Position numbers and translations under genes: made by a program
In this document: positions 2,599 to 25,354 of the stretch, one piece after another
How the letters are laid out: each line of letters begins with the position of its first letter
Position numbering within the stretch: position 1 is the first letter of the stretch
Assembly: GCA_016182655.1 (NCBI GenBank)
Contig: JACPGB010000022.1
Location: 1-64,000, forward strand
Source: Deltaproteobacteria bacterium
GTDB lineage: Bacteria > Desulfobacterota > GWC2-55-46
DNA length: 64,000 nucleotides
Reading direction: 5' to 3'
Notes under the pieces: model-generated
What the model was told of the DNA's origin: nothing
Database searches by the model: none
Seen by the model: only the letters and a program-made list of their open reading frames with translations

Positions 2599-5328
2599 TT
2601 ACCTCGCGGGTCTCAAGTCCCCCGAGGTCTCTCTCCGGGCCTCGTCCAGCCACTGGTGGAAGTGGAATTTGACGAGTTGTTTGAAGAACTCGCCTTCGGC
2701 GTTGAGCATCTCGTATATGACCATCGGGATGTTGGCTTCGAAGCCCTTGAATATGACCTCGCCGCTTTTGAAAAAGGCCTCTATCCGTTCCGAGTTTTTT
2801 ATCGTCTCGGTCGAGAACCAGAATTCGAGCGGGGTCACGGGGAAGAAGAAGGAGTCCCGTATGGCGCTGTCGAGGTCTTTGGGCTCGACCGTCTTTTTGA
2901 AGAAGAACTTGGTGCCTTTCTTCTCGCGCATGTAGGCCTCGAGCGCGTTCACGCTTATCGCCTGCCCCTTGTTGTAGATGTCGGTCGTCGAGGAGATGAG
3001 CCTTAGGTTTGTGAAGGTCTCTCCCGCGATTATCTTTTTAAGGTCAGTGAAGAACTCGTTCGCCATTATCTGCGTCATCGCCTGCGCGGAGGCGGGCTTG
3101 CCCGAGCCGATGAGTTTCTCGAAGGCGCTGTCGAGCTCGGGCGGCATCTTTATGGAGAATACGCGGTCGATGTAGACGTCGAACGGGTATTTTATCTTCT
3201 GCTTGCGCTTGAGCCTTTCGTTTTCGAGGAGGAGCTCGAGCTTGGCCCTTACCATCGGGTTCCTGAATGTGCCTCTGGCCGCCTCGTTGATCTTCTCCCC
3301 TATCGCGACCTTGACCGGGCCGGAGAACTCGCCCTTCGGCTCTATGACGGTCGTCTCGGCCTTGGCGCCGTAGGCGATATAGAGCCCGGCCTCGAGCTCG
3401 CCTTTTATCGCGGCCTCGATCTCGTCCCTGTAGGTGTTCTCGAGCCTGTGCTCCTCTTCGCCGAGGGATACGAGCTTCAATTCCACGCCAGGCTCTTTCC
3501 GCTCGAGCGCCCTTTGCAGTTCGGTCCGCCTCTGTTTAAGCGCATCTCTTTTTTCCTCGAAGGACTTGTGGACGGAGTCGAGTATCTCCTCGTTCCTCAT
3601 GGGCGGGAGTTTTTTCGCGAGCTGGTCCCTGTAGCGCCTTATTATCTGCTGAATGTCGCATGCGAGTGCTATGAGGTAGCTTACGCCGCCCGAGAATATC
3701 GCGGCGTCGCCGGGGAGGTTCGTGAGATTTATGCCGCGCTCGTCGCTCGAGACCCCTATGCCCGCGCCGTACTGGGATGCGGCGTTGAGTATCGGCTTGT
3801 AGAAGTGCTCCTTCATGAACTCGGCCATCGCTATCTCTTTTACCTTGAGCGTCTTCCGGGTAAAGTCCTTCATGTCGATGAAGAGCTGGCCTTCCTCCTC
3901 GGTGGTAAGGGTCTTCAAGATGGGTCTGTCGTCGGTCGAGAACCTGTAGAGGCGTCCCCTGTTGTATTCCTCGACGAGCATGTTCTGGTTGAACTCGCCC
4001 CGCCTGTCGGAGAGGTAGCCGCGCATCGGCCCCTCGAAGCTCTCTATGTGGTCGTCGAGGGCCGAGGCGCAGTAGCCTTCGATGAGCGGCAGGATCGATT
4101 CGAACTCCTTTTTGGGGCTTTTGAGCAGGCCGCCGAAGAGCGATTTTTTTGAGGACAGGAAGGATTGGAGCGAGTTTATCGTATCGACCCTGCCCGCGTC
4201 CTTCGTGAACCTTTTCTTGATGTCGTCGAGGGCTTTTAAGAGGTTCTGGGAAGTCTTCTGGTCGTCCAGGATGTTCCTTATGAGCCGGTCCTCGTTAAGC
4301 GCGTCGTAGAGGACCGACTGGACCTCGGTGCCCGGTATGTCGAACTCCGCGAGATAGGCGAGCGATTCTTCCCTGAACCGCGCCGTTTCGTAATTGGCCT
4401 GGAGGGACTCCATTATGTCGGACTTATGCCTGATGTTCGCGGAGAGCGAGCTTATGAGGTCAGCCGAGGCGGACTTGCCCGATACAGCCGGGGCGTAGCC
4501 CGAGACGAGCTCGATGACCTCGGCGTTGATCCCGTACGGGTTGAGGGTGTTGGCGAACAGGGACTGCGGAATGGAGAGGAACGATTTCGGCGTAAGCGCG
4601 GAGTGTAACAGCGCGTCGTTAAGCGGTGTATACGCCGTAGCGCCCTGGCCCTTGAGCTTGTCGAGCGTTTGCCTTATGGCGGTCCTCAAGGCGACAAAGA
4701 GCGCCATGCCGACGGCGAGGTCGATCTTTTCGTAGGTGAGCCCCTTTATCCTGAAGCTCTTTACCTTTTCCTTCTTCTTTCTTACCGTATTTACGGCCGC
4801 AAGTAGGGCGAGGTACGCGGTCCTCTCTTCGCCCCCGTGGCGCGCCTCGTCCTTAAGCGCCTTTTCGACGAGCTCGGAGGCCCATTTGACGAACTTCCTG
4901 CCGTGGCCGTCGCCAGTGAGCCAACCGGAGAGAAGGGAGCTGTCGAGAAAAGGTGTGGACGAGAGTATTTCGGCAGCGAGCCTCTTCTCCATGGAGTCCG
5001 AGATAAAGAGGTCGGTCCTGAAGGTCTTGTCCTTTATCGGGGGGACGGTGAAGAGGATGGGCTGTGGGCCGCCCTCCCTGCCTTCTATCGAAGGGGGCGA
5101 ATACCTCTTGACCATGAGGGCGACGAGCGATTGCACCGCGTTATCGGCGAACGCCTCGTCGTCGGCGCCCATGTGGAACGGGATCTTGAGCTCGGCGATG
5201 GTCTCGCCGTGCCTGAAGCGGAGCGACCTTGGCTCTATGGTCCAGGGGCGGCCGTTGGCGACGTCGAGTCCGAGTTTTAGAAGCGCGTCCAGAGTCTTGA
5301 GACGCTCATCGGGGTATGCTGAAGGCAT
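2599..5328 (-). CDS. Large protein with divergent class III nucleotide cyclase domain
   Basis: This 909-residue protein has no signal peptide or membrane helices. Residues 1-470 are alpha-helical and unrecognised. From about residue 480 a class III adenylate/guanylate cyclase fold can be followed: LFIDMKDFT (first metal Asp D485), LPGDAAIF (second metal Asp D541), GLYIAYGAKAE (about 648) and VAIGEKINEAARG (672-686). The last block matches the canonical IGDxVNxAAR, with N681 and R685 retained. A charged helical insertion of about 80 residues (565-645) splits the domain. The lysine usually four residues before the second metal Asp is an Asn (N537), so substrate choice, or activity itself, is uncertain. 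The C-terminal 220 residues are of unknown function. It is convergent with larE and has no operon partner. Confidence 0.7.
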   Translation of the reverse strand: MPSAYPDERLKTLDALLKLGLDVANGRPWTIEPRSLRFRHGETIAELKIPFHMGADDEAFADNAVQSLVALMVKRYSPPSIEGREGGPQPILFTVPPIKDKTFRTDLFISDSMEKRLAAEILSSTPFLDSSLLSGWLTGDGHGRKFVKWASELVEKALKDEARHGGEERTAYLALLAAVNTVRKKKEKVKSFRIKGLTYEKIDLAVGMALFVALRTAIRQTLDKLKGQGATAYTPLNDALLHSALTPKSFLSIPQSLFANTLNPYGINAEVIELVSGYAPAVSGKSASADLISSLSANIRHKSDIMESLQANYETARFREESLAYLAEFDIPGTEVQSVLYDALNEDRLIRNILDDQKTSQNLLKALDDIKKRFTKDAGRVDTINSLQSFLSSKKSLFGGLLKSPKKEFESILPLIEGYCASALDDHIESFEGPMRGYLSDRRGEFNQNMLVEEYNRGRLYRFSTDDRPILKTLTTEEEGQLFIDMKDFTRKTLKVKEIAMAEFMKEHFYKPILNAASQYGAGIGVSSDERGINLTNLPGDAAIFSGGVSYLIALACDIQQIIRRYRDQLAKKLPPMRNEEILDSVHKSFEEKRDALKQRRTELQRALERKEPGVELKLVSLGEEEHRLENTYRDEIEAAIKGELEAGLYIAYGAKAETTVIEPKGEFSGPVKVAIGEKINEAARGTFRNPMVRAKLELLLENERLKRKQKIKYPFDVYIDRVFSIKMPPELDSAFEKLIGSGKPASAQAMTQIMANEFFTDLKKIIAGETFTNLRLISSTTDIYNKGQAISVNALEAYMREKKGTKFFFKKTVEPKDLDSAIRDSFFFPVTPLEFWFSTETIKNSERIEAFFKSGEVIFKGFEANIPMVIYEMLNAEGEFFKQLVKFHFHQWLDEARRETSGDLRPAR

Positions 5329-5662: not shown

Positions 5663-7567
5663 ATGAGTATCGGTCCTTCGGCAAACCATACAGGCGAAGC
5701 AACTGGGTTTAAAGAGAAAGACCTCTTCCTTCCGGCGGTCCTGTCCGTCGTCGCAATAATAGCAGTCGCGTATTCGAATACCCTCTTTGGACCGTTCCAG
5801 TTCGACGACCACCTCTATGTCATAGACTACAACAGGGGCAAGGGGCTCGGCGCGTTCTGGCCGCCATCGGGGACGCGGTATGTCACATATCTCACCTTCG
5901 CCCTTAACTACCGGTTCGGCGGGCTCTCTACAACAGGCTATCACATCGTAAACGTCATCATACACGCGCTGAATTCCATCGGCGTCTACCTTCTCGTGGC
6001 AGGGATATCGAGGACGCCGCTTTTAAAGGGCAGGGTCGCGTCCGCTAACGCGATTGCGCTCTTTTCAGCGGTCCTCTATGCCGCGCACCCGGTGCAGACC
6101 GAGGCGATAACCTACATAAGCCAGAGGTTCGCCTCGCTCGCCACGCTCTTCTACGTCTATTCTATCGTCTTTTACCTTAAATGGCGTCTTGCTAATGGTC
6201 CGCGCCAAAGATGGTTTTTTTATATCCTACCGATAGCCCTCGTTGTGCTCGCGCAGAAGACAAAGGAGATAGCCTTTACGCTCCCGTTCATGCTTGCCTT
6301 CCTTGAGTTCGCGCTCTTTGAAAAGGGGAGGTACGGAAGCAGGGTGGCGCGTCTCGTCCCGTTCGCGTTATGCCTTCTCATAATACCGCTCACCGTCTAC
6401 GGCCACGACCTCCTCCTCTGGGGCGGGGACAAGGCCGTCGGCGACGAGGTGAGAAACCTTCAGCTAAAGGACCTCCATTCCATATCGAGGCACGATTACC
6501 TCTTGACCCAGTTCAGGGTCATCGTCACTTATCTCAGGCTACTCGTCCTTCCGACAGGGCAGAACCTCGACTACGACTACCCGATGTACCGGTCGATTGC
6601 CGAGCCTGCGGTATTCCTTTCCATGATATTCATAGCGTCGGTATTCTTTTTCGGCTTATGGCTCTTTGCGCGCTCGATACGGAAGGGCGGCGGGTACGGC
6701 GCTCTCGCGGGCCTCGGCGTCATCTGGTTCTTTGTGACGATATCGATCGAGTCCTCGATAATACCGATAAAGGACCTGATATTCGAGCACAGGCTCTATC
6801 TGCCGAGTGTAGGGGCCGCGCTCTTCGCGGCGACCGCCATTTTTTCCCTGAAGGACAGATTCGCCCCCGGCCTTAAGACTTCCGTTTTTACCGCCCTTGC
6901 GGTAGTGGTATTCGCGGCACCGCTCGGAGCCGCGACTTATTCAAGAAACTCGCTCTGGACCGACGAGGCGGCCATATTCGAGGACGCGGCGAAAAAGTCC
7001 CCAGGCAAGGAACGGGTCCATTACAACCTCGCGTGGGCCTACCAGGGGAAAGGTGAGAAGGCAAAGGCGATAGAGCATTACAAGGAGACGATACGCCTTA
7101 AGCCGGACAAGGACAAGGCCCACTATAACCTCGCTGTCCTGTACCAGTCGACGGGGGACAGGGCCGGGGCGCTCAAGCACTTCAAGGAGGCGGTCAATAT
7201 CTCGCCGCGAAACGCGACAGCCTGGTACAACATGGCCGCCATTTACCACGATATGGGCGACGACTCCGGCGCCATAGAGAGGTACGCCGAGGCGATACGG
7301 ATAAACCCCGGGTACGAGGACGCGCACTTTAACATCGCCTGGCTCTATAAGGAGATTGGGGACTACAGGCGCGCCGAGGCGCACTTCAGCGCGGTAATAG
7401 CGCTCGACCCCGGGAGCGCGGACGCCCATTACAACCTCGGGCTTGTGTATTCGAAGGCCGGAAGAGGCGACCTCGCGGCCGGCGAGCTCAATTCAGCCCT
7501 TGCGATAGACCCGAATTATACCGAGGCGGCTCTGGAGCTTTCGAGGGTCATGAAGGCGGCGAAGTAG
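5663..7567 (+). CDS. TMTC-like GT-C glycosyltransferase with C-terminal TPRs (paralogue 1)
   Basis: This 634-residue polytopic membrane protein has about ten hydrophobic segments followed by roughly five TPR units from residue 450 to the end (repeats of the type HYNLAxxYxxxGxxxxAIxxY). The first extracytoplasmic loop carries the acidic pair FQFDD (D48/D49) expected of lipid-phosphate-sugar dependent GT-C enzymes. HPVQTEAITYISQRFASLA and a KEIAFTLPF helix are family landmarks. This arrangement matches eukaryotic TMTC O-mannosyltransferases (DUF1736 plus TPR). The inferred role is transfer of a sugar from a polyprenyl-phosphate donor to exported proteins. It is first in a run of six genes with gaps of at most 6 nt. 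It is closest in sequence to the copy at 26831-28825. Confidence 0.75.
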   Translation: MSIGPSANHTGEATGFKEKDLFLPAVLSVVAIIAVAYSNTLFGPFQFDDHLYVIDYNRGKGLGAFWPPSGTRYVTYLTFALNYRFGGLSTTGYHIVNVIIHALNSIGVYLLVAGISRTPLLKGRVASANAIALFSAVLYAAHPVQTEAITYISQRFASLATLFYVYSIVFYLKWRLANGPRQRWFFYILPIALVVLAQKTKEIAFTLPFMLAFLEFALFEKGRYGSRVARLVPFALCLLIIPLTVYGHDLLLWGGDKAVGDEVRNLQLKDLHSISRHDYLLTQFRVIVTYLRLLVLPTGQNLDYDYPMYRSIAEPAVFLSMIFIASVFFFGLWLFARSIRKGGGYGALAGLGVIWFFVTISIESSIIPIKDLIFEHRLYLPSVGAALFAATAIFSLKDRFAPGLKTSVFTALAVVVFAAPLGAATYSRNSLWTDEAAIFEDAAKKSPGKERVHYNLAWAYQGKGEKAKAIEHYKETIRLKPDKDKAHYNLAVLYQSTGDRAGALKHFKEAVNISPRNATAWYNMAAIYHDMGDDSGAIERYAEAIRINPGYEDAHFNIAWLYKEIGDYRRAEAHFSAVIALDPGSADAHYNLGLVYSKAGRGDLAAGELNSALAIDPNYTEAALELSRVMKAAK

Positions 7568-7568
7568 G

Positions 7569-9089
7569 ATGGTGAGAAGGCCGGATAACATCGCCCTTGC
7601 GCTCGTCATCGTCGTGGCCGCTTTCGCGGTCTACGGACAGACGCTCAGAAACGGCTTTGTCTACGACGACAACCACATAATACTCGCGAACGAGTGGATA
7701 AGGGACCCGGCGCGCATACCCGACATACTCACGTCGTCGACTATATTCGCCGACCCTGCGCGCTCCTCGTCGAACACCTACAGGCCGCTCCTCTTCATCG
7801 TGTTCATGGCCGAGGACTTCATGTTCGGGCTCGGTTCCCCCTGGGGTTTTCACCTCGTGAACGTATCGTTGCTTGCGTTGAACGGCTGTCTCCTTTACGG
7901 GATAGCGTTGATGCTGTTTGCGAAGGACGACGCGGGGGGAGGTTTCAGTTACGGGTCTTTGCCCCCGCTCCTCGCCGCGCTTGTCTTTACGCTCCATACG
8001 GTAAATTCGGAGGTCGCCAACTGGGCCTCCGCGCAGGCTGAGCTCCTGTTTACGGCGTTCTTTCTCGCCGCCTTTTGGATATACGCAAAAGGCGGGAGGG
8101 AGTCGGCCGCGAAGGCCGTCGTCCCGGCGCTCCTCTATTTTCTCGCGCTCCTTGTAAAGGAGACGGCTATAATACTCCCCGCGCTCCTCTTCGCCTCAGA
8201 CCTCATCGATGACGGTAGAAAGATCTTCAAGAGGGCGTTCAATTACGCGATATTTTTCGGCACGGCGGTCCTGTACATGGTAATAAGGACATACGCCGTC
8301 GGTGGGTTTGTCCATGAAAAGAAGATTGCCTTCAGCGCCTTCGAGGCCTTCATAAACATATTCCCGCTTATTACGCATTATCTCTCGAAGCTCGTCTATC
8401 CCTCGGGGCTTAGCATCATCTATGAATTCTACCCGGCGCGCTCTTTCGGCGACCAGAGGGTCATTGCGGGTATGATCATCACGGCTGTATTCGTCCTTGC
8501 CGTTGCGGCCGTCAGGCATAGACCCGTAAGGCTCGCCCTTGTCTGGACGGCCCTGCCGATACTCCCGGTCTTGTATATCCCGGCGCTCTCGACCTCTGCG
8601 GCCGCGGACAGGTATCTGTATCTGCCGACTGCCGGGTTCGCCATAATAGTCGCGTCTATCGTCGGCGCATTCATAAGGCGCGCCGGAGCCATAAGGATCA
8701 TTGCCGTGTCAATCTGTTCTCTCGCGCTCCTCTCCTCATACGCGGCCGCCTCTTTCAAGAGAAGCGCCGTCTGGAGGGAGGACTATACCCTATGGGCGGA
8801 CGCGCTTGAAAAGTCGCCGAAGAGCGCGCACGTCCACTACAACTTCGCGTGGTCGAGCCGGACGAAGGGGGACGCGAGGTCCGCTATAGAGCACTACAGG
8901 GAGGCTATCCGCCTCTCTCCGGCCGGCGCGGCAGACGCGCATTACAACCTGGGGCTCATCTATACCGACCAGTACATGTTCGACGAGGCGGACTTCGAGC
9001 TCTCGGCGGCATTGAGTCTCAATCCTGGTTTCGCTCTGGCCTCGGAAGCGCTCGCGAGGGCAAGGGCGCTTAAGGCGATGGAGGAGTGA
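7569..9089 (+). CDS. TMTC-like GT-C glycosyltransferase with TPRs (paralogue 2)
   Basis: This 506-residue protein starts one nt after the previous stop. Its N-terminal helix runs into NGFVYDDNH, with the acidic pair at D33/D34. Further hydrophobic segments follow, then the KETAIILPALL helix, the AAADRYLYLPT motif and an S-x-VWREDYTLWADALEKSP linker. Two to three TPRs start near residue 420. It is the shortest of the full-length paralogues because its TPR region is short. Function is inferred from the TMTC/GT-C architecture; acceptor and sugar are unknown. Confidence 0.75.
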   Translation: MVRRPDNIALALVIVVAAFAVYGQTLRNGFVYDDNHIILANEWIRDPARIPDILTSSTIFADPARSSSNTYRPLLFIVFMAEDFMFGLGSPWGFHLVNVSLLALNGCLLYGIALMLFAKDDAGGGFSYGSLPPLLAALVFTLHTVNSEVANWASAQAELLFTAFFLAAFWIYAKGGRESAAKAVVPALLYFLALLVKETAIILPALLFASDLIDDGRKIFKRAFNYAIFFGTAVLYMVIRTYAVGGFVHEKKIAFSAFEAFINIFPLITHYLSKLVYPSGLSIIYEFYPARSFGDQRVIAGMIITAVFVLAVAAVRHRPVRLALVWTALPILPVLYIPALSTSAAADRYLYLPTAGFAIIVASIVGAFIRRAGAIRIIAVSICSLALLSSYAAASFKRSAVWREDYTLWADALEKSPKSAHVHYNFAWSSRTKGDARSAIEHYREAIRLSPAGAADAHYNLGLIYTDQYMFDEADFELSAALSLNPGFALASEALARARALKAMEE

Positions 9090-10744
9090 TGGGGAGGCTG
9101 AACGCATCGATATCGAGGGTGGTGCTTGCCGCGCTCGCGGTCGTCATAACCGTCGCGGTCTTTTCCCCTGCGCTTCAAAACGGGTTTGTCTACGACGACC
9201 ATGTTCAAGTCTTGAAAAACCCATGGATAACCGACATCCGTTTCATACCTGAAATATTTTCGTCATCCTCCTGGGCTTTCTTCGGATACTCGGGAAATAC
9301 CTACAGGCCGATGCTCCACATCTACTCCATGGCCACTTACTTCGTCTTCGGCCTCAGACCCTCCGGATGGCACCTTGTAAACATACTCGTCCATGCCGCC
9401 AACGCCGTACTGGTCTTTTTAACGGCTTCGATTCTGATCAAAAACCGGGCGGATGATACACTCCCGGCACGGAAGGGCGGCTTTGCGGTCCTCGCGCCTT
9501 TTTTTGCAGCTCTCATATTCTCCCTTCATCCGGTGAACTCGGAGCCCGTGGCGTGGGTCACGGCGGTCGCGGAGCTTGCCTTCACGTTTTTTCTCCTGCT
9601 CTCCATGTATCTATACCTGAGATTCAGAGAGGGAGGGGGAAAGGACGCCGCCTTTTACGCATTATCTCTCGCCTCATTTGTTATCGCTGTATTCAGCAAG
9701 GAGACTGCGTTTGCCCTCCCTGCGCTTATAGTCGCCTCTGACCTCTCAAGCGGCAGGGGGCTTAAGTATTGGCTTAAGTATTGGAGGTCTTACGCGGGAT
9801 ACTTCGCAGTGGCCGCGCTCTATATGGCGGCGAGGACATTGGTCGTCGGCGCCCTTGTGCGGGACAGGCAAATCGACCTGTCGGGCGTTGAACTTGTGAT
9901 CAATGTGCTTCCGCTCGTCTTTCAGTACGCAAAGACGCTCGCGTACCCGTCTTCGCTCTCTGCCCTCTACGAGCTCCACACTATAAAAACGCTCGATGCC
10001 GGGGCCGCCGCCGGGATTGCGGTCATAGCCGTTTTCCTCGCGGCACTAGTCGTATTCAGGAGAAGGCGCGCGGTCTTCCTCGGGCTCATTATGATGGGGC
10101 TCCCGTTGCTCCCCGTGCTCTACATCCCTGCCTTATCCACATCCGCCGCCGCGGACAGGTACATGTATCTGCCGACCGCTGGCTTGGGCATTATAGCTGC
10201 ATATGTGTTTGAAAGGGTTTTTAACGGAAACCTCCGAAGGGCCTTTACCTATATTGTCGCGGCCATCGTCATTATCGTCCTTTCGGCGTACTCGATAAGC
10301 TCTGTAGAGAGAGCGCGGGTATGGAAGGACGACCTCGCTCTCTGGTCTGATACCGTCAAGAAGTCGCCTGGGAGCAAATACGCGCACTACAACCTCGCGC
10401 TGGCGTACCAGGACAGAGGCGACCTCGATAGGGCCATAGGCGAGTTCAAGGAGGCGATAAAGGCCGCCCCTGACTACGAGGACGCTCACTACAATCTCGC
10501 TTGGTGCTATCAGCAAAAAGGTGATAACATCAACGCGGCCCTGCACTACAGGGAGGTCTTGAGGCTCGACCCCGGCTCCGCGGACGCGCACTATAACCTG
10601 GGGCTCATATACAGGGGCGAGTTCCTTATCGACGAGGCCGTCGCCGAGTTCTCCGAGGCGCTCCGGTTGAGACCCGGCTACGCGGAGGCGGCGGGGGCCC
10701 TCGCGGAGATATCAATGACCGTCGGAGGAGCCCCAGCGCGATGA
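9089..10744 (+). CDS. TMTC-like GT-C glycosyltransferase with TPRs (paralogue 3)
   Basis: The likely start is the ATG at 9089, overlapping the upstream TGA in a TGATG junction; a GTG at 9086 in the same frame is an alternative. The 551-residue product has NGFVYDDHVQ with the acidic pair at D36/D37, multiple membrane segments, KETAFALPALI, the AAADRYMYLPTAG motif and about three TPRs from residue 430. It is most similar to paralogue 2, including the shared ALSTSAAADRY stretch. Its end overlaps the glycosyltransferase 2 gene by 4 nt (ATGA), which strongly suggests co-translation with a donor-making enzyme. Confidence 0.75.
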   Translation: MGRLNASISRVVLAALAVVITVAVFSPALQNGFVYDDHVQVLKNPWITDIRFIPEIFSSSSWAFFGYSGNTYRPMLHIYSMATYFVFGLRPSGWHLVNILVHAANAVLVFLTASILIKNRADDTLPARKGGFAVLAPFFAALIFSLHPVNSEPVAWVTAVAELAFTFFLLLSMYLYLRFREGGGKDAAFYALSLASFVIAVFSKETAFALPALIVASDLSSGRGLKYWLKYWRSYAGYFAVAALYMAARTLVVGALVRDRQIDLSGVELVINVLPLVFQYAKTLAYPSSLSALYELHTIKTLDAGAAAGIAVIAVFLAALVVFRRRRAVFLGLIMMGLPLLPVLYIPALSTSAAADRYMYLPTAGLGIIAAYVFERVFNGNLRRAFTYIVAAIVIIVLSAYSISSVERARVWKDDLALWSDTVKKSPGSKYAHYNLALAYQDRGDLDRAIGEFKEAIKAAPDYEDAHYNLAWCYQQKGDNINAALHYREVLRLDPGSADAHYNLGLIYRGEFLIDEAVAEFSEALRLRPGYAEAAGALAEISMTVGGAPAR

Positions 10745-11487
10745 AGAATGGTACGATGCTCTCCGTGATAATGCCGTCGTTCAACGAAGGCGCGCATATA
10801 CGTAAGAACGTCGCCGAGACATGGGAGACGCTCGAAAAGGTCTGGAGCGATTCGTTCGAGATAATCATCGTCGATGACGGGAGCTCGGACAATACCCACG
10901 CCGAGGCCCTGGCCGCCTCTCGCGCGCACCCGCGCGTCAAGGTCGTCCATTACAAGGCCAACCGCGGCAAGGGCGGGGCGCTGAAGGAAGGGTTCATGAA
11001 CGCGGTCGGAGACTATATCGTCTTTCTCGACGCGGACCTCGACCTCCACCCGTCGCAAATTGAATCGCTCTTCAAGGCGATGGAGGATAATAACGCGCAG
11101 ATCGTGATAGGCTCCAAGCACCACCCGTCGTCGGCGCTCAAGTACCCCGCCCACAGAAGGATAATAAGCAGGGTATACGCGATGGCGTTAAAGCTCCTTT
11201 TCAAGCTCCCGGTCCGCGATACGCAGACCGGGCTCAAGATCTTCAAGGCCGAGGTGCTGAAAAGGATATTCCCGAAGGTCGTCTGCTCGAGGTACGCCTA
11301 TGACCTCGAGATACTCGCCAACGCGCACAGGCTCGGCTACAGGATAGCCGAGGCCCCGATAGTGCTTAACTTCCAGAGGGTCGCCAAATGGGGCAGGATC
11401 AGGACAAAGGACCTCTACCGCGCGGGGATGGACACGCTCGCCATATTCTACAGGATGTATTTTACAGGCCACTACAAGGGGATCTGA
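10741..11487 (+). CDS. DPM1/ALG5-like polyprenyl-phosphate sugar synthase (GT2)
   Basis: This 248-residue GT-A glycosyltransferase has an N-terminal VIMPSFNEG, nucleotide-binding VDDGSSD (44-50), metal-binding DADLDLHP (97-104), an RGKGGALKEGF loop and the RDTQTGLKIF acceptor-side motif seen in dolichyl-phosphate glucose/mannose synthases. It has no C-terminal membrane anchor of the GtrA kind. The expected reaction is NDP-hexose plus polyprenyl phosphate giving polyprenyl-phosphate hexose on the cytoplasmic face. It sits in the middle of the TMTC-like run with a 4-nt overlap upstream, so it is the natural donor supplier for those enzymes. Glucose versus mannose cannot be decided from sequence. 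Confidence 0.82.
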   Translation: MKNGTMLSVIMPSFNEGAHIRKNVAETWETLEKVWSDSFEIIIVDDGSSDNTHAEALAASRAHPRVKVVHYKANRGKGGALKEGFMNAVGDYIVFLDADLDLHPSQIESLFKAMEDNNAQIVIGSKHHPSSALKYPAHRRIISRVYAMALKLLFKLPVRDTQTGLKIFKAEVLKRIFPKVVCSRYAYDLEILANAHRLGYRIAEAPIVLNFQRVAKWGRIRTKDLYRAGMDTLAIFYRMYFTGHYKGI

Positions 11488-11493
11488 TCCGCC

Positions 11494-13242
11494 ATGCGTT
11501 CTGAAAGGGGGCTCAAACTTCTCTTTATCGCGATAGCCGCGCTCGTCTCTTTCGCGGTCTACGCCAACACCCTTGGGAACGGGTTCGTATACGACGACCA
11601 CCTGCAGATAGAGAAGAACGGCTGGCTCGCCTCCTTTGCCAGCGTGCCAGAGATACTCACAAGCCACGTCTACGGGTTCAAGCCCGAGCTCAAGGTGACG
11701 GGCTCGTACAGGCCGCTCTTCATGCTCGTCTATCTCTTCGAACACGCGGCCTTCGGGGTCAGGCCCTGGGGCTGGCACCTCGTCAACGTCGCTCTCCACG
11801 CCTTCTCCGTGATCATGGTATTCCTTATCGCCGATAGAATGATAAGAAAACGCCGTGAGGGGGCGGGGGTGCCGACAGTAGGCCTCGTCGCCCCGTTCAT
11901 AGCCGCTCTCCTCTTTGCCGCGCACCCGGCGCACAACGAGCCGGTGGCGTGGGTCGCCTGCGTGCCGGAGCTCTCTTTCACGGCGCTCTACCTCGCCGCG
12001 CTGTATATCTCGACAAGAAGTGAGCGAGGATGGGCGATAGGACCGGCAATCCTCTACTTCAGCGCGCTTCTTTTTAAAGAGACGGCCGTTACGCTCCCTC
12101 TCGTGGTATTCGCCTACGACAGGCTCGCCTCAAAGTCCGATACCGGTTACGTCAGACGCTACCTTCCGTTCGGGGCGGCGCTCGCATTATACCTGATATT
12201 AAGGCGCTCGTTCCTCGGCGGCCTCGCGCCAGTGTCAACGATGCACCCGTATCTGGACGCGGGCAAGACCTTGATAAACGCCGTCATATTCTTTGCCGAG
12301 TATATCCGCGCCCTCGTCTTCCCTTATCGGTTCGAGCCCTTCAGGGTCTTCGACCCGGCCGTATCGACGGCTGAGCCGAGGTTCCTGTTCGGCGCGCTCG
12401 TGACAGTTGCCCTCATGGCGGCGATCATTTTTTACCGTAAAAAGTCGCCGCTCTCGGCGTTCTCGCTCTTCTTTTTCTCAATAGCCATACTCCCCGCGCT
12501 CTACATACCCGCACTCAGCCAAAACCCCTTTGCCGAGCGGCAGGTCTACTTGCCTTCGGCCGCTCTCGCTATCGGGGCCGCCGCAATTGCGTCCCGCGCC
12601 ATAGGGGAGAACGTTACCCGCGCGGCCACGGCCCTCGTTATCCTCCTTGCCGTTACCGCCGTTTTTTCATACGCCACGATAAAAAGGAACTTCGCCTGGC
12701 ATGACGACCTCTCCATATGGACCGCGTCGGCGGTCTCACAGGAAGGCAATTATCTCGCCTCGCACAATATAGCCGTTGAGCGCGCGATAGCCGGGGATGT
12801 GGACGCCGCCGTCTTCGACTACAAGGAGGCGATAAGGATGAATTCGGAGAGGAGGTTCCCGGACGAGTTGACCCTTGTCCTTTCAAACCTCCATCTCGGC
12901 AGGATATACGCGCAAAAAGGATTGCATAAGGAGGCTGCGGAAAGGTTCAGCGAGGCCGTAAGGATAAAGCCGGACCTCCCGGAGGCCAGATTGCGCCTCG
13001 CGCTCGCGCTCGAATCGTCAGGCGACCTCAAGGGGGCCGCTCTCGAGTACAACAACGCGCTCGCGCTCTCATGGGGAAGGGACGACCTCAAAACGATATA
13101 CAGGAATCTCGGCAGGGCGCTTGCGGGGCTCGGCCTTAACGAGGACGCGGCTATGAGTCTGGAGGAGGCGCTCAAACTCGACCCCGGCGATGCGGAGACT
13201 GCAAGGGCACTCGCTCTCGCAAGGAAGGGAGGAGCGAGATGA
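11494..13242 (+). CDS. TMTC-like GT-C glycosyltransferase with TPRs (paralogue 4)
   Basis: This 582-residue membrane protein begins 6 nt after the GT2 stop. NGFVYDDHLQ places the acidic pair at D34/D35. HPAHNEPVAWVACVPELSF, FKETAVTLPLVVF and NPFAERQVYLPS follow. The usual DRY of paralogues 2 and 3 is replaced by ERQ. The linker NFAWHDDLSIW leads into about four TPRs from residue 420. It overlaps the next gene by 4 nt (ATGA). It and paralogue 5 form a subgroup (Q/R-x-PFAER-x-YLP/F). Confidence 0.75.
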   Translation: MRSERGLKLLFIAIAALVSFAVYANTLGNGFVYDDHLQIEKNGWLASFASVPEILTSHVYGFKPELKVTGSYRPLFMLVYLFEHAAFGVRPWGWHLVNVALHAFSVIMVFLIADRMIRKRREGAGVPTVGLVAPFIAALLFAAHPAHNEPVAWVACVPELSFTALYLAALYISTRSERGWAIGPAILYFSALLFKETAVTLPLVVFAYDRLASKSDTGYVRRYLPFGAALALYLILRRSFLGGLAPVSTMHPYLDAGKTLINAVIFFAEYIRALVFPYRFEPFRVFDPAVSTAEPRFLFGALVTVALMAAIIFYRKKSPLSAFSLFFFSIAILPALYIPALSQNPFAERQVYLPSAALAIGAAAIASRAIGENVTRAATALVILLAVTAVFSYATIKRNFAWHDDLSIWTASAVSQEGNYLASHNIAVERAIAGDVDAAVFDYKEAIRMNSERRFPDELTLVLSNLHLGRIYAQKGLHKEAAERFSEAVRIKPDLPEARLRLALALESSGDLKGAALEYNNALALSWGRDDLKTIYRNLGRALAGLGLNEDAAMSLEEALKLDPGDAETARALALARKGGAR

Positions 13243-14969
13243 ACGCAAGGCTTAAGCCCCTCCTCTTCGCGCTCGCCCTCGTGGCGGCCTCCTTTGCCGT
13301 TTACCACGCGACATTGTGGAATTCCTTCGTCTATGACGACGCCGAGCAGGTCTTGAGGAACCGCTGGATCACTGATATAAGATTCTTAAAGGACATCTTC
13401 ACCTCCCATACCTTCGCATTCGCCGAGTCGAACTACCAGGCTATCTCCTACAGGCCTCTCTTCATGTTGTTTTACATGGCCGAGTACGCCGCCTTCGGCC
13501 TCTATCCCTTGGGATGGCACCTTGTGAACATAATCCTCCACGCGGCGAACGGCGTAGCCGCGTTCTTTCTCGTAAGGAGGCTCCTCAGCGCGGAAGAGAA
13601 AGGGGCCTCCTTTGCCGCCTTCGCCGGAGCTCTCGTGTTTACAGTCCTTCCGGCGGGGAGCGAGGTTGTCTCGTGGGTCGGGTGCGTCCCTGAGCTCCTC
13701 TATACATTCCTCTGCCTCGTATCCTTTTACATTTACGCAGGGGAGGGCAAGGGGGCAGGAAGGGTCATTGCCTCGGCCTTGTTTTATTTTGTCGCGGCAT
13801 TCACGAAGGAGACCGCGATCATCCTACCGTTCTTTTTGTATGTATATGATTCGCTCCGCGAGGGATATCTGCCGTCCCTTTCGCGCGTAAAGAGATATAT
13901 CCCGTTTGCAGCGGCGGCGTTCGCCTACATCGGGATCAAATCCGCGCTCCTCGGCCACATAGCCGCGCCCGTCCGGATACACACGGACCTTAAAGGGGCG
14001 GACTTTCTCGTGAACGCGCCCTCCCTTTTTGCCGAGTACCTGAAAGCGCTCGTCTTCCCGGCAGGGATTTATCCCCTCCAGCCGTTCTCGCCGGTTCACT
14101 TCGGCGAGGCGGGGTTCATGCTCTCGGCAGCAGTCATCGTTCTGCTCGCGGCCTTCTTTTTTCTCTTCCGAAGGAAGTTCGACAGGCTATCCATCCTCGC
14201 GTTTGCGATATTCGTAGTCCCGCTTCTGCCCGCTCTCTATGCCCCTGCCATAAGCAGGACGCCGTTCGCCGAGAGATACCTTTACTTCCCGTCCGTCGGG
14301 TTCGCGCTTTTTATCGCCCTTGTCTTACGGAGCGTGCGGCTCTCTTCCTCGTCGAGCCGGAAGGCGCTCATCGTCGCGCTCGCGGCAGTCTCTTCCCTCT
14401 ACTCCGTATGGTCGTACAAAAAATCCTTCAACTGGCGGGATGACAGGGCGCTTTGGGGGGAGTCGCTCAAGGGGTCTTCGGAAAACTACCTCGCGCTCCA
14501 TTCTCTTGGGTATCTCGATTTCAAGGAGGGGAGGGACGCGGAGGCGATAGAAAGACTCTCGAAGGCGCTGGACCTCAACCTCAAAAGCCCGCACCCGGAC
14601 CCTACCATGGTCTTGCTTACGAGGAAACTGCTCGCGAACGCGTACCAGAGGCGCGGCCTCATGGACCTGGCAACGGCGGAGTACGAGGAGGTCCTGAAGT
14701 TTGAGCCCGAGGACCCCGTGGCCGGGTTCAATCTCGGGACGATATACGAGTCCATGGGCCGCCTGAACGACGCTATGGAGCTCTATGAAAAAGCGCTCTA
14801 TTTCGCAAAAAGGCCGGAGCTTCTAAGGGAGATCCTCTTAAGGCTCGGGGAAGGGTACGCGAGGACCGGGCGAGTGGCCGAGGCCCTTGCGGTCTATGAA
14901 AGAGGGGCCGAGGCCTTCCCCGGAGACCCAGAGTTCCTCAAAAAGGCGGGGGCCCTCATGAGTAGATGA
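13239..14969 (+). CDS. TMTC-like GT-C glycosyltransferase with TPRs (paralogue 5)
   Basis: This 576-residue protein is the last member of the tandem run. NSFVYDDAEQ gives the acidic pair D33/D34. GSEVVSWVGCVPELLYTF, TKETAIILPFFLY and RTPFAERYLYFPSVG match paralogue 4. The TPR-containing C-terminus runs from about residue 416 and ends in a further TPR with FPGDPEFLKKAG. Acidic pair and membrane topology are conserved in all five tandem copies, which argues that each is kept active, perhaps for different acceptors. Confidence 0.75.
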   Translation: MNARLKPLLFALALVAASFAVYHATLWNSFVYDDAEQVLRNRWITDIRFLKDIFTSHTFAFAESNYQAISYRPLFMLFYMAEYAAFGLYPLGWHLVNIILHAANGVAAFFLVRRLLSAEEKGASFAAFAGALVFTVLPAGSEVVSWVGCVPELLYTFLCLVSFYIYAGEGKGAGRVIASALFYFVAAFTKETAIILPFFLYVYDSLREGYLPSLSRVKRYIPFAAAAFAYIGIKSALLGHIAAPVRIHTDLKGADFLVNAPSLFAEYLKALVFPAGIYPLQPFSPVHFGEAGFMLSAAVIVLLAAFFFLFRRKFDRLSILAFAIFVVPLLPALYAPAISRTPFAERYLYFPSVGFALFIALVLRSVRLSSSSSRKALIVALAAVSSLYSVWSYKKSFNWRDDRALWGESLKGSSENYLALHSLGYLDFKEGRDAEAIERLSKALDLNLKSPHPDPTMVLLTRKLLANAYQRRGLMDLATAEYEEVLKFEPEDPVAGFNLGTIYESMGRLNDAMELYEKALYFAKRPELLREILLRLGEGYARTGRVAEALAVYERGAEAFPGDPEFLKKAGALMSR

Positions 14970-15104: not shown

Positions 15105-15926
15105 ATGCCTCCTGAAAAAAAAGACCCTAATCCGATGAGCACGACACGCGACAAGCTTGCGAACATGTTCTCCAAGGTCATGGCAGGGACGGTCACGAGG
15201 GAGGAGGGGACGATGCTCCTCAATCACCTCGTAAGGGAAGACATGGTGGGGACTATAAAGGAGCTGTCTTACCTTATCGACTATCCGCCTCCGGGCGTCT
15301 TTCCAAAGACCATACTCCACACCATCTCGCTGTCGAGGAACAAGGCCTTCTACAACATAATGGTCGGGAGCCTTGAGCACAAGAACGAGGACGTCTCGAT
15401 ACTCGCGGCCCAGGAGCTCGCGAGGCTCAAGACCTCGGACGCCAAGGTTGTGCTCATCGAGCACCTTAACAGCGAAGTATACCACGTAAGGAAGGCCTCG
15501 GCGATAGCGCTCGTGCAGGGTTTCACCGAGGGGATAGACATAGTGAGGAAGCACCTCATGGACCAGGCCGAACCATTCTACAGGTCCACCTCGGCGCAGG
15601 CCCTGCTTACCGGTGGCAGAAGAGGTGTCGAGGCTTTGCTCCACATCCTCAACTCAGGCGAGCCTGGGCCGGTCGCCTCCGCCGCCGAAGTCGTCATGGG
15701 GGCGTCTTCGAGGCTCGATGCCGCGGACGTGCCGAAGGTATTCGAGGCGTTGATGCTTGCCGGGGACAGGAAGGACTCGAGGACGATCATCGAAATACTG
15801 AAGGTGGTGACCGCGCTCGGGGGGAGGGCCAGGGGGTTCGAGGGCTATGTGCAGGCCTTCACCGATTACCCGTTCGACGCAGTAAGGAACGAGGCCGCGG
15901 ACGCCCTTAAAGTCATAAGGGGCTGA
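15105..15926 (+). CDS. HEAT-repeat protein
   Basis: This 273-residue soluble protein is built of two-helix HEAT/PBS-lyase-like units with recurring patterns such as A-x-ELARLKTSDAKVVLIEHL and VRKASAIALVQGF. HEAT arrays are protein-binding scaffolds, and no catalytic residues are apparent. Two starts are possible: ATG 15105 with GAGGGA nine nt upstream, and ATG 15135. It follows the glycosyltransferase run but has its own likely promoter and terminator, so a shared function is not implied. Confidence 0.6.
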   Translation: MPPEKKDPNPMSTTRDKLANMFSKVMAGTVTREEGTMLLNHLVREDMVGTIKELSYLIDYPPPGVFPKTILHTISLSRNKAFYNIMVGSLEHKNEDVSILAAQELARLKTSDAKVVLIEHLNSEVYHVRKASAIALVQGFTEGIDIVRKHLMDQAEPFYRSTSAQALLTGGRRGVEALLHILNSGEPGPVASAAEVVMGASSRLDAADVPKVFEALMLAGDRKDSRTIIEILKVVTALGGRARGFEGYVQAFTDYPFDAVRNEAADALKVIRG

Positions 15927-16076: not shown

Positions 16077-16904
16077 CTAAAGCGCGCCATTAAGACGCCG
16101 GAGGTTCTCCCCAGCCTCTTCAAGGCCGGGGTTCAGCCGGAGGGCGTTTTCATATTCAGCCCCCGCGAGCCCCGGCTCTCCCGATATCTCGAAGGCCTTG
16201 CCTAACCCGTTGTGGGCCTCCGCTGAGTAAGGGGCGAGCTCTATCGCCCTTTTCAGGCTCTCTATCGCGGCGGCCGGGTCTTTTTTTAGCAGATAGGCCT
16301 CGCCGACGAGCCTGTAGGCGTCCGCGTAATCGGGCATGTACTTTAACGCCGCCCTGTACTCATCGATCGCCTCGTCCAGCATGCCGGTGTCCCTGTAAAG
16401 ATACCCGAGGTTTATGCGCGCCTTCGCATGGGAGGGTCTTATGCCGAGGGCGGTCCTGTATTCCTTCAAGGCCTCCGGGTATCTGCCCCTGGTGTAATAG
16501 GCGTACCCGAGGTTATTGTGCGCCTCTATTATGTCGGGCTTGAGCGCCACGGCGATCTCGTACTTCTCTATCGCCTCGTCGACCCGCCCCCATGTGTGGA
16601 AGATCGCCCCGATGTTGAAGTACGCCTTCCCGTAATACGGGTAGATCTCGACGGCTTTGAGGTTCTCCTCGAGCGCGCGGTCGAGGTCGCCGTTTCCGGC
16701 AAGCACCGTAGCGTAGTTATAATGCGGGCGCGCTTTTGACGGGGACTTGGCGACGACATCCGCCCAGAGCGTCTCCGGGCTCTTCCAGACCGAGTTCCTG
16801 TTGAACGATATCAAGGCGAGCGCAATGACGACGGCCGCAAGTGCTATCGAGGGCAGGGAGGAGGTATCGCTCCGGTTGTTCCGGGAGGCGCAGTCCGGGG
16901 GCAT
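16077..16904 (-). CDS. Single-TM TPR protein resembling the C-terminal end of TMTC-like enzymes
   Basis: The probable start is ATG 16904, which overlaps the preceding stop as TGATG; a longer reading frame to 17015 runs back into the barrel gene and is unlikely to be used. The 275-residue product has one membrane helix (about residues 17-36) and then six to seven TPRs. The segment after the helix (FNRNSVWKSPETLWADVV, then a KSP-x-KAR-x-HYN transition) matches the last-helix-to-TPR linker of the GT-C paralogues. It therefore looks like a TMTC-like gene that lost its catalytic membrane domain, or a purpose-built periplasmic TPR docking protein. It is translationally coupled to the barrel gene. 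Confidence 0.65.
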   Translation of the reverse strand: MPPDCASRNNRSDTSSLPSIALAAVVIALALISFNRNSVWKSPETLWADVVAKSPSKARPHYNYATVLAGNGDLDRALEENLKAVEIYPYYGKAYFNIGAIFHTWGRVDEAIEKYEIAVALKPDIIEAHNNLGYAYYTRGRYPEALKEYRTALGIRPSHAKARINLGYLYRDTGMLDEAIDEYRAALKYMPDYADAYRLVGEAYLLKKDPAAAIESLKRAIELAPYSAEAHNGLGKAFEISGEPGLAGAEYENALRLNPGLEEAGENLRRLNGAL

Positions 16905-18907
16905 CACCAGATCCTCACGAATATCCTTGTTGCCCTGAATATGATCGAGGCCTCCTTCGTCTCGGTGGTGTCCTCGACCCTGTACGAGTTCTTCTGCTCG
17001 AGCCCCAGGAGCCACGCCCGGAGCGGATAGGTAAGGACGTTGGTAAACGAGGTCTCGTCCTTGTCCGACTCCGAGCTCTTCTTCTGCGAGACGCTGAAGG
17101 TAGCGCTCCAGTTGAGGCTGTTGTAGAATTGTTTGGAGTATTGCGTAAGGAAATTCATGTCTTTTGTCGTGTCCGAGCCGCCCTCATATTTGGAGTCGAT
17201 CAGGGCGTAGTAGAGCGAGAGGCCCAGAGTGCCCTTGAACAACGGCCTGTTATGCCCGACGGAGGCCCCGACGGTGTCGGTCTCGGCGAACCCGCTCACC
17301 CCGCTGAAGGTGGACGAATGCTCCGCGAAGCCCTGGAGGCTGAAGTTCTTGAAATAGGCGGAAGTGGCGTCCAGCCTGTACGTCTCGTGCCTGCTGCCGG
17401 TCACGTCGATATACGACTCGTAAATGGACTTGTCGTACGCCGCGTTTATCGACACGTACTGCTTCAAGACCTTGTTGAAGGCGTTGGCGTTATAGTTCTT
17501 CGAGTGGCTGAATATGTTCTCTCCCGCGAGAGTGTATGTATCGGATTGCGAGGCGCCGACGCCGAAACCCACATACCGGTTTACGTCTATGTTGCCGAGC
17601 GAGGCGCTGACGCTGTGTTCCAGGCCCTGTCCGGTCCTGAACCCCTCGGCCTTGTCCTCTATGTAGCCGAGCGACCATCCCGCGCCGAGCACGGCCCATG
17701 GGAACATCTTCGAGTAGCTGAGCCTGGAGGTAACCCGGAGCGTCGTCCTGTCTCCAGTCGTGGCGGCGGTATCGGAGGTCGTGTCGGTCGCGGTATCCGT
17801 GCCGGTAGTATCGGTCGTATCCGTGGTAGTGTCAGTGGTGGACGCCGCCGAGGCGTTTGAGTTGGACTTGAAGTCCGAATATGATACCGATTCCGAGGCC
17901 GACAGGTTGTCGGTGAGCCTGTAGTTTATGCCCCCGCTTGCGCCCAGGGACTCGGTCTCGGACGTTGACGTGGAAGAGTTGTTCTCGGAGGTGCCGAGGC
18001 TGACCGAGATGTTAGCGTCCGCCCTCTGCGTCAACTTGTACCCCATGTCGCCTGAGTAGGACGTCCCTATCTGTTCGTCCCCGTCGGTGCTGTTCCTGTA
18101 GTATGCATACTTGTGGCTCTGATCGAAGTCCTGGCTCGGCTTGGAGTTCAGGAGGAGGCTCAAGCCTTCGAGGCTCGTTTCGGTGTTCGAATCCGTCTCG
18201 TCCGAGGCGGACCGGCTGAGAGTCGCGCCGGCGTATATCTGGGTGCTCTTGGAGATCTTTGTGAGGTTATTAGCGTTCAAGGTCGCTACCGAAGAACTCG
18301 TGCCGTCGGAGGAGTCGCTCGTGGCGTACGCCATGGTCGCGTCGTTCTCGGTCGGGCCCATTGTTTTTTTCAGGATTACCTTGTAGTTGGCCGTCTCCGA
18401 ATCGAGGCCATCGGACTCCGTCAACGCCCTTTCGGCGTAGATAGAGGTCTGCGGCAGGGTACGGAGCTTCAGGAACCAGTTGAGCCCGTAGGTCGTCTTG
18501 GTCGTCTCCGACGAGCTTGTCTGGCCCTCTGTCCTCTGCCCGTAGAGGGTGAGAGGTATGCCGGATTTTGGGAGTACGGTCGTACGCAGGTAATAATCGA
18601 TAGTACGGGTGGCGACGTCGCTTGAATTCGACGAATAGTCGTTGTTGGTGATGGCGACCCCCGCGTCGTAGATGAGGAGCCTCCTGGACATGAAGTTTCC
18701 CTTCAAGTCCAGGCTGTATGTCTGCTGGAAGCGGGACGAATCCGACGATATGCCGTTCTGTTCGGTCGCGGCCTCCTCGAACTCGAAAAAGACCCGTCCC
18801 AGGAGGGACTTGTAGATGTACGGGTCCTCTTCGACGGCATAGCCCATTTGAGGCGCAAAGAGGCCCGCGGCTACTGCGGCAACGAGCGCCAGTTTGTTGC
18901 GGAGCAT
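16904..18907 (-). CDS. Outer-membrane beta-barrel protein with Thr-rich insert
   Basis: This 667-residue protein has a signal peptide (hydrophobic stretch ending G-Y-A near residue 24). It then shows alternating hydrophobic/polar strands rich in Ser, Thr, Tyr and Asn, and ends in an aromatic residue (VRIW), as expected for BAM-assembled barrels. Residues about 352-384 form a low-complexity Thr/Asp tract (TTDTTTDTTDTTGTD type), probably an exposed loop. No haem motif or CxxC is present, so it is not a typical MtrB. Its position beside cytochrome genes suggests a role in an outer-membrane redox conduit or secretion pore, but this is an inference. Confidence 0.65.
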   Translation of the reverse strand: MLRNKLALVAAVAAGLFAPQMGYAVEEDPYIYKSLLGRVFFEFEEAATEQNGISSDSSRFQQTYSLDLKGNFMSRRLLIYDAGVAITNNDYSSNSSDVATRTIDYYLRTTVLPKSGIPLTLYGQRTEGQTSSSETTKTTYGLNWFLKLRTLPQTSIYAERALTESDGLDSETANYKVILKKTMGPTENDATMAYATSDSSDGTSSSVATLNANNLTKISKSTQIYAGATLSRSASDETDSNTETSLEGLSLLLNSKPSQDFDQSHKYAYYRNSTDGDEQIGTSYSGDMGYKLTQRADANISVSLGTSENNSSTSTSETESLGASGGINYRLTDNLSASESVSYSDFKSNSNASAASTTDTTTDTTDTTGTDTATDTTSDTAATTGDRTTLRVTSRLSYSKMFPWAVLGAGWSLGYIEDKAEGFRTGQGLEHSVSASLGNIDVNRYVGFGVGASQSDTYTLAGENIFSHSKNYNANAFNKVLKQYVSINAAYDKSIYESYIDVTGSRHETYRLDATSAYFKNFSLQGFAEHSSTFSGVSGFAETDTVGASVGHNRPLFKGTLGLSLYYALIDSKYEGGSDTTKDMNFLTQYSKQFYNSLNWSATFSVSQKKSSESDKDETSFTNVLTYPLRAWLLGLEQKNSYRVEDTTETKEASIIFRATRIFVRIW

Positions 18908-24463: not shown

Positions 24464-25354
24464 CTACTTATTATGGCATGTCCTGCAGAGCCCGCTACCC
24501 GTGTTGCCGCCGACCCTGCGGAGGAAAAGACCGTTCGATTCCACCTCCTGGTAGGCGGCGACGTTCGTGTAGGTAGAGTCGACCTCCTGCCAGGACTTGT
24601 TGTTGAAGTGAGGGTCGTGGCACGAGGAGCATTCTACCCTGCCGTTCCGGAGGAGGTCCGCTATCGTCGCCCGGTCGGATATGAACCCCTTTACGGACCA
24701 GAAGTTTCTCCCCATGTTGCCGTTGTCGAAGGATATCGAGCTCACGCTCAAGCCCGTAGTGATGTCTATTTGGCTGATAGTGGTGTTCGTGGGCCGGAGG
24801 CTCGCGGCCGTGCCGGCGCCGTAAAGGACGGAGACCGGATGGTCGTTCGAGAGGTCCAGGCCCAGGACGAGCCTGGACGCGGTCATGAAGTCGGAAACGA
24901 GGATCCCGGTTAAAAGGAACTCGTAGCCGCGGTCTGACCCGCCCTGGGTGACCCCGCCCCTGCCTGGAGCGTTCACTACGTTGTCGAAGGTGGTGACGCC
25001 GTCGTGACAGGAGAGGCACGCGAGCGAGACGGAGCCTATGTCGGTGTTCGAAATGGTCGTCTGGGAGGCGGTCGTGCCGTAGGCGGTGAAACTCGTGTTG
25101 GATATCGCGGCCCTGTTCCACATGGGTCTCAGGTTATTCGTGGTGTTCGAGTGGTGAGGCGTGTGGCAGAAAACGCATATCTCGGTAGTAGCCTGCGAGC
25201 TTATGTGCATGGAGAGGCCGCCGAGGTTGTGTCTGGACCCGGCTATGCCGGTCGCGGCGTCACCGACAAGGTAGGTGTCAAGGGCCTTTGCAGGCGTTAC
25301 GGAAAGGATGCCGATCGAGACGGCCATAAGGGCAGCAGCTCTCAAGTATTTCAT
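24464..25354 (-). CDS. OmcE-like tetrahaem c-type cytochrome A
   Basis: This 296-residue secreted protein has a signal peptide ending A-K-A (about 24) and four CxxCH sites at 60-64, 113-117, 242-246 and 290-294. Conserved surroundings are RHNLGG, CVFCHTPHH, MWNR, CLSCHDGV, DHPVS, CSSCHDPHF and CRTCH. This order matches the four-haem OmcE-type extracellular cytochromes, which can polymerise into nanowires. Spare histidines (H42, H67/H68, H172, H249) are candidate distal ligands. The inter-haem regions are rich in Ser and Thr. It is colinear without gaps with the paralogue at 25641, so it is a tandem duplicate, though each copy has its own terminator. Confidence 0.85.
   Translation of the reverse strand: MKYLRAAALMAVSIGILSVTPAKALDTYLVGDAATGIAGSRHNLGGLSMHISSQATTEICVFCHTPHHSNTTNNLRPMWNRAAISNTSFTAYGTTASQTTISNTDIGSVSLACLSCHDGVTTFDNVVNAPGRGGVTQGGSDRGYEFLLTGILVSDFMTASRLVLGLDLSNDHPVSVLYGAGTAASLRPTNTTISQIDITTGLSVSSISFDNGNMGRNFWSVKGFISDRATIADLLRNGRVECSSCHDPHFNNKSWQEVDSTYTNVAAYQEVESNGLFLRRVGGNTGSGLCRTCHNK

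Follow-up and report, generated by a model that had tools for sequence, protein, structure and literature searches.

What is the role of a bacterial operon in which five paralogous membrane glycosyltransferases resembling the animal TMTC proteins surround a single glycosyltransferase of family 2 (GT2), and is it a fixed pathway or a changeable set of enzymes? The question is raised by a gene array at positions 5663-14969 of the window, the stretch of 64,000 nt analyzed here (Deltaproteobacteria bacterium GCA_016182655.1, contig JACPGB010000022.1, positions 1-64,000, forward strand). The TMTC transferases of animals have bacterial relatives that are, to our knowledge, almost unstudied. The array was found to occupy a variable slot bounded by two conserved genes, which is new here. 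At a probability of roughly 0.6, the locus is read as a variable, recombining cassette slot of TMTC-like transferases, each joining a class C glycosyltransferase (GT-C) membrane domain to tetratricopeptide repeats (TPRs), together with an exchangeable GT2; it would then be a modular locus diversifying periplasmic or surface glycosylation. Its fixed place, its absence in part of the family, the changing number of transferases, the changing GT2 and an exchange of domains suggest a modular locus and not a fixed five-enzyme pathway.

The array consists of six head-to-tail genes in the order P1, P2, P3, GT2, P4, P5, separated by gaps of +1, -4, -4, +6 and -4 nt:

5663..7567, + strand: P1, GT-C/TPR protein of 634 aa, in a clade apart from P2-P5; double aspartate (DD) pair present, without the YRP motif, five TPR stretches
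7569..9089, + strand: P2, TMTC-like GT-C/TPR protein of 506 aa with the shortest TPR tail (about 94 residues)
9086..10744, + strand: P3, TMTC-like GT-C/TPR protein of 552 aa; DD pair at residues 37-38
10741..11487, + strand: GT2-I, GT2 resembling polyprenyl-phosphate-sugar synthases, 248 aa, with no transmembrane (TM) helix apparent from the sequence
11494..13242, + strand: P4, TMTC-like GT-C/TPR protein of 582 aa
13239..14969, + strand: P5, TMTC-like GT-C/TPR protein of 576 aa

A preliminary description of the locus had placed five GT-C/TPR paralogues and a GT2 here with a spacing of -4 to +6 nt, and the open reading frames confirm both place and spacing. Pfam matched Glycos_transf_2 in the GT2 (E 1e-35) and only TPRs in P1-P5, so the membrane part of the latter had to be identified by other means. 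Membrane-domain identity was 33-45% within P2-P5 and 23-28% between P1 and P2-P5. Related genomes show synteny across the array, and the ratio of nonsynonymous to synonymous substitution rates (dN/dS), computed for each array gene against two relatives, was 0.12-0.26 throughout, indicating purifying selection; the array is therefore not a chance arrangement. P1, P2/P3 and P4/P5 form three separate lineages in the tree, each predating the split of these genera, which rules out simple tandem duplication of one gene.

A variable slot between two conserved genes

The slot was compared in 21 genomes. Most or all of the genomes compared in this study are metagenome assemblies. The borders and the gene following the right border are, in the window:

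2599..5328, - strand: left border, conserved 909-aa protein of no known family (no Pfam match), present in 49 of 59 genomes, that of the window and its relatives
15105..15926, + strand: right border, conserved HEAT-repeat protein
16077..17015, - strand: tmTPR stub, resembling the end of a TMTC-like protein (last TM helix and TPRs) but lacking a catalytic domain

To the left of the slot, the conserved order is a PP-loop enzyme, LarE and the 909-aa protein (- strand). To the right follow the HEAT protein, the stub (- strand) and a beta-barrel candidate, and then a cluster of a formylglycine-generating enzyme-like (FGE) protein, a spermidine-synthase-like protein, a second FGE, a peptidyl-prolyl isomerase (PPIase), an OmcE-like cytochrome and an NHL protein. 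The slot is the only changing part of this gene order. It is empty in eight genomes and elsewhere holds one to five transferases with one of two unrelated GT2s (GT2-I or GT2-II) or none, the relative gene order within it being constant:

Empty: G007, G008, G009, G014, G018, G026, G028 and G035 (G035 belongs to another family)
P1 only: G024
P1, P1', GT2-II, P5: G029
P2, GT2-II, P5: G005
P1, P2, GT2-II, P5: G010, G019, G025
GT2-I, P4, P5: G006
P1, P2, P3: G015, G022
Full set: G000 (the genome of the window), G002, G003
Full set, the contig ending after P5 so that the right border is not on it: G004
With a chimera of P2 and P3: G001

On the tree of the two flanking proteins at least two changes between presence and absence are needed. 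Most simply, the cassette would have been gained in the family and then lost completely in four members of the genus g6. The tmTPR stub is kept next to the slot even when the slot is empty, and this conservation suggests that it is probably a functional periplasmic TPR protein.

Exchange was also observed within a gene. The array of the window and that of its nearest relative, G004, are mostly 80-95% identical along their length. Within P3, identity to both G003 and G004 falls to 63-70% and then returns to 85-95%, delimiting the following tract:

9186..10346, + strand: P3 recombinant tract, beginning at about the DD loop and ending shortly ahead of the TPRs; catalytic domain (about residues 34-420) swapped for a divergent allele of lower G+C content at third codon positions (GC3), TPRs and flanks not swapped

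Sites unique to the window numbered 252 of 1139 within the tract and 21 of 696 outside it. At the protein level, the catalytic domain of P3 is 63% identical to that of the nearest relative and the TPRs are 94% identical. The synonymous rate was raised along with the nonsynonymous rate (dS 1.3 versus 0.19), and GC3 was 0.67 in the tract versus 0.74-0.82; both fit the entry of a foreign allele better than rapid change under selection. The donor of the exchanged domain was not found among the related loci compared, and a comparable exchange was not seen in the two other genera examined. In G001, another species, a single gene stands in place of two, with the first approximately 225 residues from P2 and the remainder from P3. 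With its GT2s and catalytic domains exchangeable and its slot empty, partly filled or full, the locus is a compact natural experiment, which bears on what TMTC-like enzymes modify, on the sugar used and on the role of the TPR tail.

Fold, active site and relation to the TMTC proteins

P3 and P1 were modelled with AlphaFold, and Z-scores were taken from a second-look structural alignment. The P3 model (pLDDT 91.8, pTM 0.92) matched STT3 (Z 22.2, root-mean-square deviation (rmsd) 4.4 over 337 residues), Pmt2 (Z 20.5, rmsd 3.9 over 342 residues) and ArnT (Z 19.3, rmsd 4.4 over 326 residues) with its membrane part. The P1 model (pLDDT 87.8) matched Pmt4 (Z 21.6), Pmt2 (21.1) and ArnT (20.1), and also STT3. 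Matches of the two models to STT3, Pmt and ArnT thus cover 310-377 residues at Z 19-22. The GT-C fold that had been proposed is therefore predicted for P3 and P1, and P2, P4 and P5 are assigned to it by sequence profile. Searching solved structures with the single P3 sequence gave no useful match, and a profile search of solved structures and the Foldseek E-value list were both swamped by TPR proteins. A membrane-domain profile of P1-P5 found more than 200 similar stretches in related DNA, duplicates included.

In an alignment of 49 homologues, D37, D38, H96, K205 and P288 (P3 numbering) were invariant and E153, R358, Y361 and W413 nearly invariant; a larger set of 158 homologues gave the same pattern. 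Eleven TM helices were counted by hand in the P3 model. The DD loop follows TM1. The conserved residues lie in outer loops of a single membrane side, which is also the side of the TPRs after TM11. This corresponds to the published 11-TM layout of TMTC and POMT proteins (PMC6801728). The preliminary description had noted C-terminal TPRs and a DD pair in the first loop outside the cytoplasm. All five proteins have both the pair and the repeats, and the models predict the pair to lie in this loop, on the same side of the membrane as the TPR tail.

The comparison with the TMTC motif set SHKSYRP, KE(T/Q)xxT and ERxxY gave a mixed result. P2-P5 carry YRP, KET and E/DRxxY-type motifs where Table 4 of PMC7801869 places them in TMTCs. 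P1 has the DD pair and KE (as KEI), and TRYVT and EHRLY stand at its YRP and ERxxY sites. The RxD motif of the second luminal loop of TMTCs is absent, P2-P5 reading AQAE, AVAE or CVPE at this site and P1 QRFA. PF08409 (TMTC_DUF1736) matched none of P1-P5 at E 0.01; in the genome it gave nothing above the cut-off, and even at E 10 it did not hit the array. Strict TMTC membership fails on these two features, and P1-P5 are therefore called TMTC-like and not filed as TMTCs. The TMTC-like architecture claimed earlier holds for the GT-C fold, the DD loop and the TPR tail, but not for DUF1736 or, in P2-P5, RxD.

Similarity to TMTC1-4 (CAZy GT105) and their prokaryotic homologues comprises the GT-C fold, 11 TM helices, a first outer loop bearing the DD pair, C-terminal TPRs on the active-site side and, in P2-P5, KET-like and E/DRxxY-type motifs. 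The differences are the unmatched DUF1736, the lack of RxD in P2-P5 and additionally of YRP in P1, the grouping of several such genes and a GT2 in one array, and a donor sugar that cannot be assigned. Pmt1/2/4 (GT39) and ArnT share the fold of the membrane domain; neither has a TPR tail, Pmt has MIR domains, and ArnT modifies lipid A.

The putative donor synthase and the proposed reaction

The array GT2 carries a DAD motif at residues 97-99, and its best match among solved structures was dolichol-phosphate mannose synthase (DPMS, 5mlz; 64 bits, residues 6-176). Residues 9-209 align to the PpgS model with a score below its cut-off, as the protein falls below every curated NCBIfam equivalog cut-off, and its sugar cannot be assigned. 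From these matches, assignment to the polyprenyl-phosphate-sugar-synthase type is supported. The GT2 domain, the DAD motif and the match to 5mlz are shared with the ALG5, DPM1 and PpgS synthases; it differs from them in lying under the equivalog cut-offs and in being replaced in other genera by the non-orthologous GT2-II. GT2-I and GT2-II form separate clades in the tree. In GT2-II (L136 7970-8683, - strand), AID stands for the usual DAD, the first Asp of DxD being absent, and CNG for the usual DDG; no NCBIfam model matched it at E 1e-8.

The GT2 had been described as DPM1/ALG5-like, which stands as to type. It is, however, not the best DPM1 homologue of its genome; that is a GT2 of 242 residues on contig C54, which scores 103 bits against 5mlz with residues 1-228 aligned. 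Beside the latter lies a TMTC-like gene (L086 6123-8477, - strand), and the pair sits in a cytochrome c maturation locus (ResB, CcsA, CcdA), an arrangement also seen in two relatives (L248, L249).

These results bear on whether the locus is a fixed bacterial system of TMTC-type O-mannosylation, in which a single DPM1-like synthase supplies mannose to five mannosyltransferases, each specific to an acceptor and selected by its TPRs. The TMTC-like motifs of P2-P5 and the differing lengths of the TPR tails agree with it. RxD, which is assigned to mannose contact in TMTCs, is nevertheless missing from P2-P5, DUF1736 is unmatched, and the slot carries alternative GT2s or none. The one clear recombination event also ran opposite to selection by TPRs, the catalytic domain of P3 being exchanged and its TPRs kept. 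This makes a fixed O-mannosylation system quite improbable, and nothing in the analysis favours mannose in particular. Since the GT2 is neither the best DPM1 homologue nor always present, a module of one mannose synthase and five transferases is not shown; the claim of one donor synthase with several transferases as a fixed module did not hold, as the slot contains two different GT2s or none and zero to five transferases. The earlier interpretation is partly supported: right in kind, but too specific.

For the modular glycosylation locus favoured here, the following course may be proposed. Judging from its family, the GT2 would most likely transfer a nucleotide-activated sugar to polyprenyl phosphate on the inner side of the cytoplasmic membrane, and a flippase would turn the lipid-linked sugar outward. 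P1-P5 would then pass the sugar to acceptors on the periplasmic side through the DD/K/R active site, as fold, motifs and topology suggest. The most likely acceptors would be exported proteins, bound in the periplasm by the TPR tails, a step suggested more weakly.

A related operon is known on a smaller scale. In the pgf operon of Streptococcus mutans (pgfS-pgfM1-pgfE-pgfM2), one GT2 and two PMT-like proteins modify exported proteins (PMC5856776). The likeness lies in one GT2 encoded in an operon with more than one PMT-like membrane protein. The pgf operon differs in having two membrane proteins and an epimerase and a Gram-positive host, with no TPRs or variable slot reported. In the slot, GT2 and GT-C genes are likewise co-located, with no substrate gene in the array operon, and three occupied slots are without a GT2. 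Full-length TMTC-like proteins in prokaryotes were already stated in 2021, e.g. AMJ42_05695 (PMC7801869). Compact multi-paralogue arrays had been taken earlier as undescribed; the variable slot is new, and prokaryotic TMTC-like proteins and the smaller operon form were already published.

Several points weigh against the modular reading. No GtrA-type flippase was found in the genome. GT2 is not in the slot of G015, G022 and G024 although transferases are present, so the link between GT2 and transferases is not obligatory. TPRs are also found on glycan- and lipid-related proteins. Synteny with the neighbouring genes may reflect inherited position and not function. As most or all of the genomes are metagenome assemblies, switching between strains during assembly could in principle account for the P3 tract and the G001 chimera.

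Variable gene content and recombination also resemble O-antigen loci, and pairs of GT2 and GT-C are typical of O-antigen glucosylation. The transferases might thus decorate a lipid-linked or surface polysaccharide (lipopolysaccharide, exopolysaccharide or lipid A) in an ArnT- or GtrC-like manner, with the TPRs recruiting assembly proteins. The close structural match of both models to ArnT is in line with this. Pmt4/Pmt2 and STT3 matched as well as or better than ArnT, however, and ArnT has no TPR tail; the slot is without a flippase, polymerase, ligase or sugar-nucleotide gene, and no GtrA was found in the genome. A polysaccharide acceptor is therefore considered unlikely, though less so than the other alternatives. 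A protein acceptor is likely, being favoured by a P1-clade homologue next to a type IV pilin gene and by the lack of polysaccharide assembly genes in the slot.

The adjacent electron-transfer cluster and TMTC-like genes elsewhere

The cluster to the right of the slot was considered as a source of acceptors. The relevant features in the window are:

16904-18907, - strand: beta-barrel-like protein, predicted exported, with a 40-residue stretch of 57% Ser/Thr (TTDTT repeats) in the closest species only
24464-25354 and 25641-26531, - strand: two tetraheme cytochromes resembling the OmcE filament subunit (7tfs, E 4e-18)
26831..28825, - strand: sixth TMTC-like protein (P1 clade), between the OmcE-like cytochromes and the NHL lipoprotein

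The cytochromes are clustered with the PPIase, the NHL lipoprotein, the FGE-like proteins and the beta-barrel candidate. They are attractive candidate acceptors because Geobacter OmcE has been described as extensively glycosylated (PMC9473688). The array might even serve mainly this cluster, glycosylating the cytochromes and/or the beta-barrel protein. Array and cluster adjoin in the array-bearing genomes where both are readable, the sixth TMTC-like gene lies inside the cytochrome cluster of the window, and the cytochromes were richer in Ser/Thr in six array genomes than in seven with an empty slot. The cluster is, however, also present in the eight genomes with an empty slot, and phylogeny confounds the Ser/Thr trend. 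In three same-genus relatives the sixth gene was not found at that position, so it is not conserved within the cluster. OmcE/NHL clusters elsewhere in the phylum are generally without a TMTC-like neighbour. Dedication of the array to this cluster is thus very improbable. Two candidate links were rejected. The content of the slot did not track the T-rich loop of the beta-barrel protein, which is limited to the closest species, and an association of TMTC-like genes with OmcE clusters was not general across the phylum. As a source of the glycans on cytochrome filaments of the OmcE type, the locus is one as yet unproven candidate.

A further elaboration of the modular locus is speculative and rather doubtful. 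GT-C domains, donor synthases and transferase number would be exchanged at one slot and the TPR acceptor modules retained. A given set of exported proteins, perhaps outer-membrane proteins or nanowire cytochromes from the neighbouring electron-transfer cluster, would thereby receive different sugars in different lineages.

TMTC-like genes are not confined to the slot. A census of 59 genomes, comprising that of the window and its relatives, found at least one such gene in 57, with a maximum of about 21. The genome of the window has about 20, several of which adjoin a GT2 gene. On contig C12 (L090 15790-18145, + strand), a P1-clade GT-C/TPR gene immediately precedes a gene for a type IV pilin, an arrangement that recalls pilin glycosyltransferase loci. 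A separate run of four TMTC-like genes was observed in G034, from another family of the order (L142 8079-14438, + strand). These four genes form a clade of their own, which suggests that such arrays arose more than once.

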